From assembly GCA_026390775.1 (NCBI GenBank), contig JAPLFF010000003.1, forward strand, positions 186,001 to 250,000: a DNA stretch of 64,000 bases. Reading direction: 5' to 3'. This document shows, in pieces, positions 1,670 through 39,307 of the stretch. Every line of letters begins with the position of its first letter. Within the stretch, counting starts at the first letter, position 1. The stretch comes from Ignavibacteriales bacterium (GTDB taxonomy: Bacteria; Bacteroidota; Ignavibacteria; Ignavibacteriales; Melioribacteraceae). The position numbers and the translations under genes were made by a program. The notes below the pieces were generated by a model that saw only the letters and a program-made list of their open reading frames with translations, was not told the origin of the DNA and did not search any database.

Positions 1670-1689
1670 CCTGCCTACCGGTAGGCAGG
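1670..1689. repeat. Perfect 20-bp palindrome upstream of the SRP RNA
   Basis: CCTGCCTACC followed at once by GGTAGGCAGG gives a perfect self-complementary 20-mer, much more GC-rich than its surroundings. It lies 10 bases before the SRP RNA. It has the look of a dispersed repetitive extragenic palindrome; no second copy is seen in this window. Confidence 0.7.
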
Positions 1690-12363: not shown

Positions 12364-12447
12364 GCCCGGATGGCGGAATTGGTAGACGCGCTAGCTTCAG
12401 GAGCTAGTGAGAGCAATCTCGTAGGGGTTCGAGTCCCCTTTTGGGCA
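12364..12447 (+). tRNA. tRNA-Leu(CAG)
   Basis: An 84-nt class II tRNA. The acceptor GCCCGGA pairs with TTTGGGC (with two G-T pairs), the anticodon arm is CTAGC-TTCAGGA-GCTAG with anticodon CAG, a long variable arm (GAGAGCAATCTC) follows, and the T arm is GGGG-TTCGAGT-CCCC. The 3' CCA is not encoded. It lies between the class A PBP gene and hpnC. Confidence 0.96.
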
Positions 12448-35062: not shown

Positions 35063-36538
35063 ATGTTAACATCAGCTATTGAAGGACTTTCACCAATTAA
35101 ATTGTGGAAAAGATTTTTTGAAATAAGTCAAATCCCACGACCATCTAAAAATGAAGAGAGAGTTCGTCTTTATCTTAGAAATTTTGCCGGACAAAATAAT
35201 TTTGATATGAAAGAAGATGAGGTAGGGAATGTTGTGATTTTAGTTCCATCTAAACCAAGATTTGAAAACGCACAGACTGTTGTTATTCAGAGTCATGTTG
35301 ATATGGTCTGCGAAAAGAATAAAGACATTAAACATGATTTTACAAAAGACCCGATAAAACTACTACGTGATGGCGAATGGATCAAAGCTGATGGAACAAC
35401 CTTAGGTGCAGATAATGGAATTGGTGCAGCAGCAGCATTAGCAGTATCGCAAGATGATGATTTTAATCATGGCCCTTTAGAATTACTTTTTACAGTTGAT
35501 GAAGAAACCGGACTGACCGGTGCAAACAATTTAAAAAAAGATTTCATAACCGGAAAAATGTTATTGAATCTTGATACCGAGGAGGATGGAGCGTTTTATG
35601 TAGGTTGTGCAGGAGGAATGGACTCCGTCGGAACTTTTAAGATTGAATATGAGGAACCTAAAAAAGGTTACGTCCCATTCACTTTTTTTGTCTCGGGATT
35701 AAAAGGTGGTCATTCGGGCATTAATATTTCAGACGGAAGAGCTAATGCCATTAAAATCATGGCGCAACTTTGTAGTATGATTGAAAAATATGATTATCAA
35801 CTTGCTTATATAAATGGCGGGTCTAAACGTAATGCAATTCCGCGTGAAGCTGAAGCAGTAATTTTCCTAAGTCCTGATAACGATTCAGATGTACGCGAGT
35901 TGATAAATGAATTTACAATCGAGACTGTTTTAGAATTCAGATTAAGAGACGATAGCATTAAAATAAATTTTGAAAGAGATGATGCTGCAGTTAAAACTTA
36001 TCCAAAAGTTTATACAAAACAATTTTCGACAAATGTTATTAATACAATTCTTGGAATGCCGCATGGTGTTATTGCAATGAATGCAGAAATACCCGAACTT
36101 GTTGAAACTTCTACAAACCTTGCAACAGTGTTAGTGGAAGGGGATAAACTAAAAATTGGAACCAGCCAACGTAGTTCAATTGAAAGTGCAAAGAAAAATA
36201 TTGCAAAAAGTGTTAAAGCAGTTTTTGATTTAGCTGGAGCTGAAGTTACAGTTGGTGATGGTTATCCCGGCTGGCAACCTGATATGAGCTCAGAGTTATT
36301 AAAGACCTCAAGGAAAGTTTTTATAGATTTATTTTCTAAAGAACCCGAATTGAAAGCTGTTCATGCAGGATTGGAATGCGGAATTTTGGGTGATAAATAT
36401 CCCGGGCTCCAAATGGTATCATTCGGTCCCACAATCGAAGGAGCTCACTCACCTGATGAAAAAGTGAAGATTGCAGATGTTGATAAATTTTATAGATTGC
36501 TAAAAAATATATTAACGGAAATAGCTAATGCAAAATGA
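35063..36538 (+). CDS. pepD: Aminoacyl-histidine dipeptidase (PepD, M20 family)
   Basis: 491 residues. Metal-site segments in order: VVIQSHVDMVCEKN, GTTLGADNGIGAAAALA, FTVDEETGLTGANN and NLDTEEDG, with the last His in GPTIEGAHSPDEKV. A lid domain (about 185-390) contains GGHSGINISDGRANAI. The enzyme releases amino acids from Xaa-His dipeptides such as carnosine and from other dipeptides. It starts 15 bases after the YchF-like gene with AGTAAAA only as a weak binding site. Confidence 0.95.
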   Translation: MLTSAIEGLSPIKLWKRFFEISQIPRPSKNEERVRLYLRNFAGQNNFDMKEDEVGNVVILVPSKPRFENAQTVVIQSHVDMVCEKNKDIKHDFTKDPIKLLRDGEWIKADGTTLGADNGIGAAAALAVSQDDDFNHGPLELLFTVDEETGLTGANNLKKDFITGKMLLNLDTEEDGAFYVGCAGGMDSVGTFKIEYEEPKKGYVPFTFFVSGLKGGHSGINISDGRANAIKIMAQLCSMIEKYDYQLAYINGGSKRNAIPREAEAVIFLSPDNDSDVRELINEFTIETVLEFRLRDDSIKINFERDDAAVKTYPKVYTKQFSTNVINTILGMPHGVIAMNAEIPELVETSTNLATVLVEGDKLKIGTSQRSSIESAKKNIAKSVKAVFDLAGAEVTVGDGYPGWQPDMSSELLKTSRKVFIDLFSKEPELKAVHAGLECGILGDKYPGLQMVSFGPTIEGAHSPDEKVKIADVDKFYRLLKNILTEIANAK

Positions 36539-36730
36539 GTAATGAAGATGTTTTTCATTAGTTGATTTTTGTCCTTCTTGATTCTATTCGATCATTCACA
36601 AAAAAAAATAGATCAAACATGAAAAAAGAAGTTAAGCTAAACAACGTCCCTCATATTATTTCTATCCAGGATATGATTTTACTACTACACAAAAGATCAA
36701 GAGATATCTCGTAAAGAGTGAGAATTGATA

Positions 36731-36761
36731 AATCAAAAAAAGAGAAGCCCTATCTGTAGGG
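36731..36761 (-). terminator. Intrinsic terminator of the tRNA/GIY-YIG array (minus strand)
   Basis: CCCTA-TCTG-TAGGG at 36748-36761, read on the minus strand, is followed by CTTCTC and a run of seven T (A run 36734-36740 on the plus strand). It stands right after the last tRNA-Cys relic and would end the transcript that includes tRNA-Gly, tRNA-Cys and the two GIY-YIG genes. The preceding stretch from 36539 holds nothing I can identify. Confidence 0.75.
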
Positions 36762-36777
36762 TTTTCCACTTTTTTAG

Positions 36778-36821
36778 AGGCGCCGGTCGGATTCGCCCGG
36801 CAAAACCGGGTTGCAGACCTT
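36778..36821 (-). repeat. tRNA-Cys relic 1 (44 nt)
   Basis: Read on the minus strand this begins AAGGTCTGCAA, exactly the 5' anticodon stem and part of the loop of tRNA-Cys, then has the hairpin CCCGG-TTTTG-CCGGG in place of the rest of the anticodon and variable regions, and ends with GAATCCGACCGGCGCCT, identical to the T arm/acceptor end of the tRNA. It lies 14 bases downstream of GIY-YIG copy 1. The 5' half of the tRNA is missing, so no functional tRNA can form. Confidence 0.88.
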
Positions 36822-36834
36822 ATTCCACAATAAA

Positions 36835-37074
36835 TCATTTACCAATTGAATTTAGAAAATTTCTACCTGGATGAGTTTTAAAATATTTTTCTCTCATCAT
36901 TGCATCAGATTTATTTCCAAAATGTTCTGAATATATTAACTCAAAAGGTTTACGATTCTTTGTTGACTTAACTTTACCGGAGTTGTGTTCAATAAGTAGT
37001 CTTTCAATGTTATCGGTGTAACCAATGTAACGATGGTTATCGACTTTACTTCGAAGGACATAGATTGTGAACAT
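36835..37074 (-). CDS. GIY-YIG nuclease domain protein, copy 1
   Basis: 79 residues, the whole length being one GIY-YIG domain: YVLRSKVDNHRYIGYTDN carries the two core strands, a helix with LIEHNSGKVKSTKNRKPF follows, then LIYSEHFGNKSDAMMREKYF with the catalytic-type Glu, and a C-terminal KTHPGRNF. Standalone proteins of this size are frequent in Bacteroidota and candidate phyla and are often found beside RNA genes; their true role is not known. It is 72% identical to copy 2 by my count (57 of 79). It forms one unit with the tRNA-Cys relic behind it. Confidence 0.88.
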   Translation of the reverse strand: MFTIYVLRSKVDNHRYIGYTDNIERLLIEHNSGKVKSTKNRKPFELIYSEHFGNKSDAMMREKYFKTHPGRNFLNSIGK

Positions 37075-37094
37075 AAAGATTTGATGAAGAGTTG

Positions 37095-37138
37095 AGGCGC
37101 CGGTCGGATTCGCCCGGCAGAGCCGGGTTGCAGACCTT
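37095..37138 (-). repeat. tRNA-Cys relic 2 (44 nt)
   Basis: Same structure as relic 1: AAGGTCTGCAA, then CCCGG-CTCTG-CCGGG, then GAATCCGACCGGCGCCT on the minus strand. It differs from relic 1 mainly in the hairpin loop. It lies 14 bases downstream of GIY-YIG copy 2 and 20 bases upstream of copy 1. Distances between equal points of the three tRNA ends are 317 and 319 bp. Confidence 0.88.
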
Positions 37139-37152
37139 TCATTTTACTATAA

Positions 37153-37392
37153 CTATTTACCAATTGAATCTAGAAAATTTCTTCCCTGATGAGTTTTAAA
37201 ATATTTTTCTCTCTTCATTGCATCGGATTTATTTTCATACTTCTCTGAGTAAATTAATTTTAGGGGTCGCCTATTCTTTGTAGATTTTACTTTTCCCAAA
37301 CCGTGTTCAATAAGCCTTCTATCTAAATCGTCTGTAAAACCAATATAACGTTTGTTGTCTTTTTCGCTAAGAAGTATATATACAGTGAACAT
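37153..37392 (-). CDS. GIY-YIG nuclease domain protein, copy 2
   Basis: 79 residues with YILLSEKDNKRYIGFTDD, LIEHGLGKVKSTKNRRPL and AMKREKYFKTHQGRNF in the same positions as copy 1. The start, 21 bases after the 3' end of the intact tRNA-Cys on the same strand, follows GAAAGG-like text that may act as ribosome binding site. Being closest to the tRNA it may be the most recent insertion. The conserved motifs look intact, so it is probably an active nuclease. Confidence 0.88.
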   Translation of the reverse strand: MFTVYILLSEKDNKRYIGFTDDLDRRLIEHGLGKVKSTKNRRPLKLIYSEKYENKSDAMKREKYFKTHQGRNFLDSIGK

Positions 37393-37413
37393 ATAGAAAG
37401 GAATTGAGATTTG

Positions 37414-37487
37414 AGGCGCCGGTCGGATTCGAACCGACGAATAAAGGTTTTGCAGACCTTCCCCTTAAGCCACTTGGGTACAGCGCC
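37414..37487 (-). tRNA. tRNA-Cys(GCA)
   Basis: A 74-nt tRNA read on the minus strand: acceptor GGCGCTG pairs with CGGCGCC (one T-G), the anticodon arm is AAGGT-CTGCAAA-ACCTT with anticodon GCA, and the T arm GTCGG-TTCGAAT-CCGAC is perfect. The 3' CCA is not encoded. Its last 17 bases recur in the two relics downstream, so the gene appears to be the target of the tandem GIY-YIG units. Confidence 0.96.
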
Positions 37488-37497
37488 AATAAAACAA

Positions 37498-37516
37498 ATC
37501 CCGATTTTATCGGGAT
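37498..37516. repeat. Hairpin between tRNA-Gly and tRNA-Cys
   Basis: ATCCCGAT-TTT-ATCGGGAT is a perfect 8-bp stem in the 34 bases between the two tRNA genes. It may be a processing signal for the joint transcript or a weak terminator; there is no T run. Confidence 0.55.
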
Positions 37517-37521
37517 CGTAG

Positions 37522-37594
<73 letters not shown>

Positions 37595-37704
37595 ATATCA
37601 AAATTTTTAGAACGCTAATTTCTCGCACCGCAAATATAATACTGCAGAATCATTAATCGCAAGATTAAGATTTTTTTACTGAACTTTTGAACAATTAACA
37701 AATG

Positions 37705-37738
37705 ATTGCTTAGAATAAGTTCTAAGTTTTTATCTTTG
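37705..37738 (+). promoter_or_regulatory. Candidate Bacteroidota-type promoter of pcm
   Basis: TATCTTTG at 37731-37738 matches TAnnTTTG; ATTG at 37705-37708, 22 bases upstream, matches the -33 box in three of four positions. The predicted leader to the ATG at 37767 is about 20 bases. Confidence 0.5.
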
Positions 37739-37766
37739 CTGTGCAAATTTAACATCTAATATTTAA

Positions 37767-38405
37767 ATGTACGAAACCGAAAGAAAAGAACTAGTAGAAA
37801 TTTTACATAGCAAAGGAATATCTAATCAGAGAGTTCTTGATGCATTTTTGAAAGTAGAAAGACATCTCTTTGTTCCGGATATAATGAAACAGCACGCATA
37901 CAAAGATGTTGCACTTCCAATCGGGTTAGGGCAAACTATTTCTCAGCCGTATACCGTTGCATATATGACGCAGGAAATTGATCCGCAGCCGAAACAAAAA
38001 ATTTTAGAGGTCGGAACCGGTTCAGGATATCAAGCTGCAATACTTTATGAGTTGGGTGCAAGGGTTTTTTCTATTGAGCGTCATAATGATTTATATAATT
38101 CAGCAATGAAAATGTTCGATAAACTTAATCTTAAAATAGCAGCTCGTTGCAGTGATGGAACTATTGGATGGGAAGAATTTTCTCCATATGATGGAATAAT
38201 TGTTACAGCAGGAAGTCCAACAGTTCCTATCAACCTTAAAAAGCAGCTTGCTGTTGGCGGTAAGATGGTTATACCAATAGGTGATAAACAAGTTCAAACT
38301 CTGCAGATTATTACAAAAATTTCCGAAGAAGAATTTAAAACACAAGAAGTTCCGTATTTTGCTTTTGTACCACTCATCGGCAAAGAAGGATGGAAAGAAA
38401 AGTAA
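37767..38405 (+). CDS. pcm: Protein-L-isoaspartate O-methyltransferase
   Basis: 212 residues. The family signature GLGQTISQPYTVAYMTQ and the SAM-binding ILEVGTGSGYQAAIL are present, followed by VFSIERHNDL and IIVTAGSPTVP. The enzyme methylates isoaspartyl residues in aged proteins so that they can revert to aspartate. The last 16 bases overlap the beginning of miaA, so the two are translated together. Confidence 0.96.
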   Translation: MYETERKELVEILHSKGISNQRVLDAFLKVERHLFVPDIMKQHAYKDVALPIGLGQTISQPYTVAYMTQEIDPQPKQKILEVGTGSGYQAAILYELGARVFSIERHNDLYNSAMKMFDKLNLKIAARCSDGTIGWEEFSPYDGIIVTAGSPTVPINLKKQLAVGGKMVIPIGDKQVQTLQIITKISEEEFKTQEVPYFAFVPLIGKEGWKEK

Positions 38406-39307
38406 TTATCATAACCGGGCCTACTTGTTCCGGAAAAACTAAAATTGGGATTTCTCTTGCAGAGAAATTTAACACTGAAATAATTTCTGCAGACAGCCGC
38501 CAAATTTTTAAATATCTGAATATCGGTACAGCAAAACCTACCGCTGATCAACTTCAACTTGTTAAACATCACTTCATTGATTTTTTAGAACCTGATGAAG
38601 TTTACAATGTTAGCCGCTTCGAAACAGATTCTCTCAAAATCATTAATAAATTATTTGTAAACGGTAAGACTCCGATTGTTGTCGGTGGATCCGGGCTTTA
38701 CATTAAGGCCTTGGTTGAAGGGATCTTTGATTCGGTTGATGTTGATAAAGAATTCCGTGAAGAATTAAAACAAAAACGTGAAAAGTTTGGGAATGAATAT
38801 TTGTATGATGAACTAAAGAAAGTTGATCTACAGAGTGCTTCAAAGATGCTTCCTCAAAACTGGAAACGCGTTATGCGTGCGCTTGAAGTTTTTCATTTAA
38901 CCGGCGAACCAATCTGGAAATTCCAAAAGAATTATGAAAGGGAAACAGATTATAAGTTTATTCTGTTCGGATTGAATTGGGAAAGAGAAAAGTTATACCG
39001 CAATATAGAAGTCCGTGTTGATAGAATGATTCAAGACGGATTAGTTGATGAAGTGAAGAATATTTTATCTTTAGGTTATTCAAAAAATATAAATTCCCTT
39101 AACACAGTCGGCTATAAAGAAATCATATCTTATCTTGAAAGTGAAATCACCTTAGAAAGGGCAATTGAACTCATCAAACGCAACACCCGCCGATATGCAA
39201 AACGGCAAATGACTTGGTTCAGAAAGACAAAAGAAATTCATTGGCTCGCATGCGATGAAAATACAACTTCAGAACAATTAGTTTCGCTAATAATAAAAAA
39301 AATGTAG
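38390..39307 (+). CDS. miaA: tRNA dimethylallyltransferase
   Basis: 305 residues; adds a dimethylallyl group to A37 of tRNAs that read UNN codons. The P-loop is IITGPTCSGKTKIG, followed by ISADSRQIFKYLNIGTAKP, IVVGGSGLYIKALVEG, and the C-terminal TRRYAKRQMTWFRKTK that contacts tRNA. The start overlaps the pcm end by 16 bp. Confidence 0.96.
   Translation: MERKVIIITGPTCSGKTKIGISLAEKFNTEIISADSRQIFKYLNIGTAKPTADQLQLVKHHFIDFLEPDEVYNVSRFETDSLKIINKLFVNGKTPIVVGGSGLYIKALVEGIFDSVDVDKEFREELKQKREKFGNEYLYDELKKVDLQSASKMLPQNWKRVMRALEVFHLTGEPIWKFQKNYERETDYKFILFGLNWEREKLYRNIEVRVDRMIQDGLVDEVKNILSLGYSKNINSLNTVGYKEIISYLESEITLERAIELIKRNTRRYAKRQMTWFRKTKEIHWLACDENTTSEQLVSLIIKKM

Follow-up and report, generated by a model that had tools for sequence, protein, structure and literature searches.

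SegB of the phages T4 and T6 is a free-standing GIY-YIG homing endonuclease of a tRNA cluster, which cuts inside tRNA genes, with the preferred motif RAWTSGAAC at 23 of 83 sites, and brings about tandem amplification by way of homologous recombination; the homolog search given with it covered phage and archaeal-virus proteins (PMC13096335). Group I introns with homing endonucleases are a second kind of nuclease-driven element of tRNA genes (PMC3984707). Integrative elements that use tRNA sites leave one whole and one partial tRNA copy at their opposite ends (PMC9897764). In the rRNA genes of bacteria of the candidate phyla radiation (CPR), GIY-YIG genes are described in insertions that match neither intron group, and most of the rRNA insertions occupy the top or the base of a stem-loop (PMC11270868). 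Here we analyzed a stretch of 64,000 nt from an Ignavibacteriales bacterium (GCA_026390775.1, contig JAPLFF010000003.1, positions 186,001-250,000), called the window below, in which two small GIY-YIG nuclease genes, each followed by a truncated tRNA-Cys copy (a relic), stand in tandem behind an intact tRNA-Cys gene. We consider it probable that such a pair is a minimal chromosomal, tRNA-specific homing-endonuclease element, whose nuclease would cut the tRNA gene and which would restore the tRNA that it interrupts.

Two nuclease units behind an intact tRNA-Cys gene

The features of the locus lie on the minus strand in the order tRNA-Gly, tRNA-Cys, a gap of 20 nt, GIY-YIG gene 1, relic 1, GIY-YIG gene 2, relic 2 and a terminator-like hairpin. 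The original prediction, made from the letters alone, had named one whole tRNA-Cys gene ending at 37414. ARAGORN found this tRNA-Cys(gca) at 37413-37487, while Rfam put its end at 37414 (tRNA family, 62.3 bits); it would be the restored target gene of the proposed element. The 3' end of tRNA-Cys, CGAATCCGACCGGCGCCTC, is present three times, at 36777, 37094 and 37413, with spacings of 317 and 319 bp as first read. Gene 1 (37153-37392) starts 20 nt past tRNA-Cys and gene 2 lies at 36835-37074. Both encode 79 residues and score above the cut-off of PF01541 (GIY-YIG; 61.9 and 60.6 bits, respectively, against 22.6), and the two proteins are identical at 57 of 79 positions (72%), which agrees with the prediction of two such nucleases, each with a relic behind it. 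Only nuclease open reading frames (ORFs) were found inside the window units in the ORF list.

Relic 1 (37094-37138) consists of about nt 28-38 of the tRNA, a hairpin, and nt 57-75 up to the exact 3' end; its hairpin, CCCGG-CTCTG-CCGGG (37113-37127), stands in place of tRNA nt 39-56. Relic 2 (36777-36821) has the same composition, with the hairpin CCCGG-TTTTG-CCGGG at 36796-36810. Each relic thus retains AAGGTCTGCAA (about nt 28-38 of tRNA-Cys) ahead of a CCCGG-N5-CCGGG hairpin. The two relics with their hairpins and exact 3' ends were as foreseen, except that they are 45 nt long and not 44 nt. The 45-nt match, together with the recurrence in other genomes described below, excludes a chance origin.

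The two relics are identical at 43 of 45 nt. The differences between them (2 of 45 sites) were significantly fewer than those between the nuclease genes (59 of 234 sites; Fisher P = 0.0013), so the relics are not simply decaying but are kept or renewed, and the first view that they are more than decay products held. Synonymous divergence (dS) between the nuclease genes was 1.34 and nonsynonymous divergence (dN) 0.178; because dN is far below dS, the nucleases are, as judged from these substitutions, under purifying selection. With 75% nucleotide identity, the window units are old relative to each other and not a fresh duplication.

Comparison with described systems

Like the window nuclease genes, segB lies between or among tRNA genes on the same strand. 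However, SegB has 221 residues, whereas the window nucleases have about 79 and lack the C-terminal part; the family profile did not match the segB region, BLASTP gave an E value of 0.064 over 25 residues, and the 4 kb of T4 inspected showed no tRNA relic next to segB. Given the size, the profile and the BLASTP result, the family was not assigned to SegB. SegB is phage-borne, whereas the present family is chromosomal, with weak phage and plasmid matches only. The phage relatives (20 records, all below 60% identity) and plasmid relatives (4 records) were distant matches, and one scan of viral contigs gave 240 pattern hits and no relative. Carriage by phages or plasmids was therefore rejected. 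In favour of a homing nuclease, there are weak profile matches to phage homing-endonuclease families (phrog_314 matched 16 of 34 members, best E value 1.2e-6), and SegB is a direct precedent for both the cutting and the growth of arrays.

The closest solved relatives of the family profile were UPF0213 (YhbQ-YazA) proteins (1zg2, E value 1.1e-14, 107 residues; 1ywl, E value 3.7e-13, 96 residues), which also have a single small domain. They were compared as proteins only, whereas the present family is mostly tRNA-linked, often arrayed and accompanied by relics. Residues Y5, Y16, G18 and E62 were invariant in 34 family sequences, and R26 was kept in at least 90% of them; we take the two Tyr motifs, the Arg and the Glu to be the conserved motif and catalytic residues of GIY-YIG nucleases.

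Elements that integrate at tRNA sites resemble the units in having a whole tRNA at one end and a partial copy at the other, which we found at 113 of 138 loci (112 of 135 without duplicates). Such elements encode an integrase and are kilobases long, whereas the units here are about 300 bp long, show no integrase, have relics broken by hairpins and also occur in 5' layouts. No integrase was seen in the window units or in the arrays inspected, and the units were not assigned to this class. In group I introns the case is also different, since here the unit stands outside a tRNA that is whole. The nuclease is free-standing, with its own ORF, and Rfam gave no intron or ribozyme family in window positions 36000-38500 or in 11 loci, so that a group I or other intron RNA was rejected for the loci scanned. 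The CPR insertions, which are in rRNA genes whereas our units are at tRNA genes, are the nearest cellular parallel. The GIY-YIG superfamily itself is known, and in our judgement the units belong with the free-standing homing endonucleases of tRNA genes as a chromosomal variant. Among the results listed by searches of the open-access literature, none described GIY-YIG units of bacterial chromosomes that are linked to tRNAs and have hairpin relics, which is weak evidence of absence.

Linkage of the nuclease family to tRNA genes

The genome of the window has four genes of the family, all at tRNAs: the two in tandem behind tRNA-Cys, one before tRNA-Leu(taa) and one before tRNA-Ser(tga). The family was present in 42 of 57 genomes (this one and related ones) and in 72 of 118 genomes of a phylum sample, each at least 90% complete, with up to 21 matches per genome. 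From the phylum sample, 110 clusters in 46 genomes with 13 family codes were examined, namely the 30 best loci and 80 of about 88 further clusters among the matches listed (counted by eye); no two of them share an exact sequence, and the figures from this set are the only ones that refer to a single sample. A whole tRNA or transfer-messenger RNA (tmRNA) gene lay within 150 bp of 81 of the 110 clusters, always on the same strand (0 opposite), and the tRNA came first in 67 and last in 14. The arrangement was found at 29 tRNA anticodon classes and at tmRNA. Among the remaining 29 clusters, 12 had a same-strand tRNA at 151-643 bp, 8 had tRNA relics only, 4 were bounded by inverted repeats (two of these inside ribonuclease P (RNase P) RNA), and 5 stayed unresolved, three of them at contig ends.

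The expectation for a random gene to lie this close to a tRNA is about 0.4%, by arithmetic that assumes 45 tRNAs in 3.7 Mb. HNH nuclease genes from 20 genomes had a tRNA nearby at 0 of 26 loci; these loci look largely like one orthologous gene, which makes them a limited control. A GTDB scan seeded with the tRNA-Cys clade gave 43 loci, of which 26 had a tRNA within 150 bp, all on the same strand, and one lay 415 bp from tmRNA. The 26 tRNA-linked loci include Gracilibacteria, Doudnabacteria, Kuenenbacteria and other candidate phyla.

Cognate relics in two layouts

The loci used for the relics, the hairpins and the nuclease tree are a mixture from close relatives, the phylum sample and the GTDB scan. 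Before these loci were counted, 19 overlapping or repeated ones were dropped; four further pairs with exactly the same sequence (L008/L176, L012/L180, L013/L181 and L175/L213) were noted, and counts are also given without them. Two layouts were found among 141 loci. In 102 loci (type A, to which the window belongs) the intact tRNA is followed by the nuclease and then by a relic that usually reaches the exact 3' end, while in 39 loci (type B, the mirror layout) a relic that usually begins at nt 1 is followed by the nuclease and then by the intact tRNA. The original prediction had taken the 3' end of the tRNA as the specific target, and the 39 mirror loci speak against this part of it.

A relic of the same tRNA was present across the nuclease in 78 of 100 type A loci and 35 of 38 type B loci with enough flank, compared with 3 of 100 and 0 of 38 in the reverse-complement control. 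Without exact duplicates, a cognate relic was found at 77 of 97 type A and 35 of 38 type B loci (112 of 135), and in the control at 3 of 97 and 0 of 38 (3 of 135). Relatives lying mostly away from tRNAs and without the relic had been named beforehand as the sign of a local duplication; the clusters close to tRNA or tmRNA (81 of 110) and the cognate relics (112 of 135 loci) gave the opposite picture. Tandem stacking, the nuclease as the sole protein, and a whole tRNA beside a broken copy, all three proposed for the window, recurred in other loci.

The preserved end was nearly constant, with 66 of 78 type A relics reaching the last nucleotide of the tRNA and 33 of 35 type B relics starting at nt 1, whereas the other ends varied widely: type A relics start anywhere in nt 1-65 and type B relics stop anywhere in nt 15-85. 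This spread rules out the anticodon loop as a single insertion point. The relics were also compared with tRNAs of the same anticodon, using the 79 of 113 relics that belong to groups of three or more and have a foreign tRNA of different sequence to compare with (L008 and L176 are both included). The tRNA of the own host was the best match for 65 of 79 relics, and 12 were ties, so the tRNA-like parts were made or renewed in the host and not carried from a donor. At L013:2015-2302, tRNA-Gly relics lie upstream of a tRNA-Gly beside a filled tRNA-Cys, one of them with its anticodon arm swapped for TCCCGACTTGTCGGGA.

Hairpins in the relics

At least two pieces were present in 102 of the 113 relics, with 113 breaks in all; tmRNA loci were excluded from these counts. 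A perfect stem of at least 6 pairs was found at 83 of 113 breaks, compared with 48 of 565 random segments of equal lengths, and 89 of 113 relics had a stem of at least 5 pairs in at least one break. The site of the break was classed for 110 breaks, leaving out those with an insert below 10 nt, by a broad rule under which the sum of the classes tells little: T-loop side where the right piece starts at most 26 nt from the 3' end, D-loop where the left piece stops no later than nt 24 and no more than 7 nt are lost, and anticodon arm for most others. This gave 55 breaks on the T-loop side, 29 in the anticodon arm and 24 in the D-loop. Of the T-side breaks, 53 of 55 were in type A, and of the D-loop breaks, 23 of 24 were in type B, so that the hairpin is often in the first loop inward from the preserved end. 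At 35 of 113 breaks the start of the right-hand piece fell in the T-loop, at 17-19 nt from the 3' end of the tRNA, and 11 insertions lay between C56 and R57 with no base lost. The complement of the SegB motif, which we derive as GTTCSAWTY, is T-loop-like; that it resembles the loop where hairpins are commonest here (55 of 110 breaks) is only suggestive.

The prediction that the hairpin travels with the unit was not borne out in this simple form. In tRNA-Pro, -Asp and -Arg relics the stems were similar between genomes (by eye). In tRNA-Cys relics the position of the hairpin was constant (12 of 13 resolved relics, or 11 of 12 minus one duplicate), whereas the stems belonged to several unrelated sequences.

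Target specificity, allele states and arrays

Of the 178 nuclease sequences in the tree, 130 had a tRNA-isotype label; these labels required 35 changes (minimum 16), whereas shuffled labels required 89.3 on average and none of 200 shuffles was as low. Without duplicates (127 rows) the isotype changes were again 35, and the lowest of 200 shuffles was 81. The nuclease phylogeny therefore follows tRNA identity. The Leu, Asn, Asp, Pro, Val and Ser nuclease groups mix host families of different classes, while a single host family accounts for all four Lys rows and a single family for one Gly group of four; these Lys and Gly rows could be vertical. Two nucleases from Gracilibacteria and Doudnabacteria (L182 and L183), at tRNA-Trp and tRNA-Pro, were 61-64% identical to the window nucleases and adjoined the window sequence on the tree. 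Their placement suggests transfer, possibly between phyla and with a change of target; as they come from metagenome bins, contamination is possible.

A comparison for empty and filled tRNA loci, suggested by the original prediction for tRNA-Cys, found both states at tRNA-Leu and tRNA-Met loci. The orthologous tRNA-Leu-tRNA-Val locus was comparable in 11 of 12 genomes of the genus and was filled in one, the genome of the window, while five had relic scars and five had neither (by eye). The five scars (L237, L238, L241, L242 and L243) lie upstream of tRNA-Leu and consist of a 5' relic with a hairpin and no nuclease; the hairpin is in the D-loop region, and its sequence mostly differs. A 5' tRNA relic with a hairpin and no nuclease was also present upstream of tRNA-Cys at L060. 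These nuclease-free 5' relics are either scars or nuclease-free units. At the tRNA-Met locus, on the same contigs, genome G005 has the tRNA, a nuclease and a relic followed by TTAAATTGA, whereas genome G011 has TTAAATTGA directly behind the tRNA. Filled, scar and empty alleles thus exist. Between tRNA-Met and tRNA-Leu at L236, a short insertion with inverted ends (GAGGCTGT...ACAGCCTC) replaces the terminator region behind tRNA-Met.

The largest arrays held 8 units, and successive nuclease genes in arrays were 249-474 bp apart (64 pairs). Neighbouring genes were 86-100% identical at the nucleotide level in 58 of the 64 pairs, which points to recent duplication, compared with 75% for the window pair. 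At L111, L161, L207 and L212 array neighbours were only 45-56% identical, as expected of repeated invasion; the value at L196, in a clade without tRNAs, was 64%. Broken nuclease copies with stop codons were also found among the relatives.

Proposed mechanism and rival explanations

The unit, as we read it, comprises about 300-450 bp, with a single-domain GIY-YIG gene and a truncated copy of the adjoining tRNA on the far side, while the tRNA itself stays intact. The nuclease gene is read the same way as the tRNA and may be co-expressed with it; its product would cut this tRNA gene in DNA without a unit. The break would be repaired by recombination with a unit-bearing copy, which would place the nuclease and a partial tRNA beside a whole tRNA, with either a 3' copy downstream (type A, as in the window) or a 5' copy upstream (type B). 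The partial copy has a loop region, in the T-loop, D-loop or anticodon arm, swapped for a GC-rich hairpin, which most likely makes it uncuttable. Unequal recombination between the tRNA end and the relic, or a second insertion, may then give the tandem arrays that are seen, and decay or loss of the nuclease would leave a relic scar, as the broken nucleases and scars suggest.

If this holds, most of the sampled phylum genomes (72 of 118) would carry a family of selfish units of about 300 bp, mostly beside tRNA genes left whole. Few autonomous mobile elements proposed so far would be smaller, and the amplification driven by SegB would have a chromosomal counterpart. Stray tRNA fragments would be explained, as would small GIY-YIG genes that lack an explanation, and the nucleases would form a natural set, each member apparently specialised for one tRNA gene. 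The units also raise the question of how the host tolerates a nuclease directed at a gene that stays intact beside it.

Several points weigh against this reading. The intact tRNA of the donor should still hold the target, and self-protection is unexplained. A length of 79 residues leaves scant room for sequence recognition. Relics above threshold were missing from 22 of 100 loci of type A and from 3 of 38 of type B, 2 of 79 relics were closer to a foreign tRNA than to their own, 16 of 43 GTDB-scan loci had no tRNA in reach, and in at least one clade of the family (16 rows) there is no linkage to tRNAs. No break bearing a stem of 5 pairs was present in 24 of 113 relics, and only 69 of 113 breaks reached P = 0.05 against their own shuffles, because the inserts are short and GC-rich. 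Of the 67 type A relics with the T-loop motif GTTCRANTY in their intact tRNA, 17 keep it themselves, so a hairpin cannot block this motif in every case. The nuclease tree is built on 79 columns and most of its forks are weak; on it, layout A or B clusters modestly (22 changes, lowest of 100 shuffles 27), as does the hairpin site (34 changes, lowest of 200 shuffles 39), which lends modest support to a site dictated by nuclease lineage. For the 45-nt relic of the window, the RNA fold of minimum energy is not the hairpin. The terminator scan gave a terminator-like site between tRNA-Gly and tRNA-Cys and no promoter-like site immediately before tRNA-Cys, both of which bear on how the unit would be expressed. 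Many of the searched genomes are drafts or metagenome-assembled. The authors of the SegB report regard self-cutting as an important question that is still open, and refer to earlier findings that cutting of the donor allele is typically inefficient (PMC13096335).

An unlikely alternative is that the hairpin itself is the mobile part, a palindrome cassette that inserts into loops of structured RNA genes with the GIY-YIG gene as a cargo or helper that may be located within such a hairpin, and that relics with a bare hairpin are its non-autonomous form. The recurrent breaks fit this account (35 of 113 starting 17-19 nt from the 3' end, and the 11 lossless insertions between C56 and R57), as do the nuclease found between the strands of a 19-24 bp RNase P RNA stem in two genomes, the separate clade with members bounded by inverted repeats in protein genes, and the relic with hairpin and no nuclease at 5 of 11 tRNA-Leu loci. 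CCCGC-type palindromes also occur elsewhere in the genome of the window, at 20 sites compared with 1 for the reversed pattern, 2 of the 20 being in the tRNA-Ser relic. However, 9 of 15 palindrome loci inspected by eye had the A-rich/T-rich flanks of terminators and none of the 15 matched a tRNA, so that a dispersed host repeat is a poor explanation of the relic hairpins. The hairpin sequences differ between orthologous loci, and the nuclease phylogeny tracks tRNA identity, which is needless for a cargo gene. It is more doubtful still that the nuclease is a toxin or regulator acting on the tRNA itself, with the transcribed relic as a decoy or antitoxin RNA in a stable gene pair. The strict same-strand linkage to the cognate tRNA, the stronger conservation of the relics compared with the nuclease gene and the recurrent positions of the hairpins could each stem from an RNA function. 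Empty and scar alleles within one genus and nucleases with stop codons suggest instead a dispensable gene that turns over; the nearest solved relatives are UPF0213 proteins, SLX1 and I-TevI, one type of locus is inside RNase P RNA and not by a tRNA, and the window relic does not fold around its own hairpin, which weighs against a simple RNA role.

That the units are eroded ends of larger integrative elements with a tRNA attachment site, which left a partial tRNA behind, is highly improbable. A partial tRNA beside a whole one is a known footprint of integration (PMC9897764), whereas the nuclease genes of the arrays are only 249-474 bp apart with no integrase in the arrays inspected, the relics carry inserted hairpins, and both 5' and 3' relics occur. 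A mere local duplication, in which a tRNA end happened to be copied along with an ordinary GIY-YIG gene of the chromosome, would account for the two similar direct-repeat units of the window, but hardly for the rest: the same arrangement occurs at 29 anticodon classes and tmRNA (110 clusters in 46 genomes), with mirror layouts and empty alleles. We regard it as next to impossible, and it was rejected by the phylum sample. The tRNA adjacency, the cognate relics and the mirror layouts bear out an element rather than a duplication, as first proposed.

Family members at other RNA genes and in protein genes

Nuclease genes of the family were also found behind tmRNA (ssrA), 15 to 415 bp away, at L024:1124-1488, L153, L170 and L212, and at L024 a relic of the tmRNA 3' end has a double hairpin in the T-loop. 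L212, the locus at 415 bp, is from Salinimicrobium catena, a cultured species. Family members lie inside the RNase P RNA gene (RF00010, 196.9 and 157.8 bits) at L119:909-1212 and at L088:1467-1770 (reverse-complement coordinates). In these two genomes the nuclease ORF is between both strands of a 19-24 bp stem, which we read as helix P3, and the true 5' RNA strand precedes the ORF. Because of the members at tmRNA and within RNase P RNA, we tentatively raise the possibility, which we rate below even, of a wider class in Bacteroidota and candidate phyla: a single-domain GIY-YIG nuclease with a GC-rich hairpin that would colonise structured-RNA genes, namely those of most tRNA isotypes, of tmRNA at its tRNA-like end and of RNase P RNA at one of its stems. 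Every lineage would be specialised for one RNA gene, would restore it and would mark the leftover by the exchange of a loop for a hairpin; as a self/non-self mark, this exchange would be a new means by which a homing element renders its footprint uncuttable.

In the clade without tRNA linkage (L015, L016, L018, L020, L195 and relatives), many proteins end in KNRLKNYLTG, and the members are bounded by inverted repeats of 11-13 bp (CCCGTGAGATA type). The nuclease of L016 and L018 is inside what we take to be a tyrosine-recombinase gene, and L015 and L020 are perhaps in four-helix-bundle genes, as presumed from their motifs.

Surroundings of the window locus

In the whole window, tRNAs were found only at 12364 and at 37413-37594. 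The first gene of the tRNA cluster, outside the element, is tRNA-Gly(gcc) at 37521-37594 on the minus strand (ARAGORN; Rfam tRNA, 72.7 bits). The scan of 36600-37800 gave 3 terminator-like sites, compared with a mean of 0.8 in shuffles; none lay between tRNA-Cys and relic 2, and one was directly behind relic 2. This site (36738-36761, minus strand), a hairpin at 36748-36761 with a T-rich tail, is probably the native end of the tRNA transcription unit. The neighbours are ordinary genes, with a beta-Ala-His dipeptidase on one side and a protein-L-isoaspartate methyltransferase and MiaA on the other. At window positions 1670-1689 there is a palindrome, CCTGCCTACCGGTAGGCAGG, that is nearly the same as the hairpin of the tRNA-Leu relic (L003) in the same genome.

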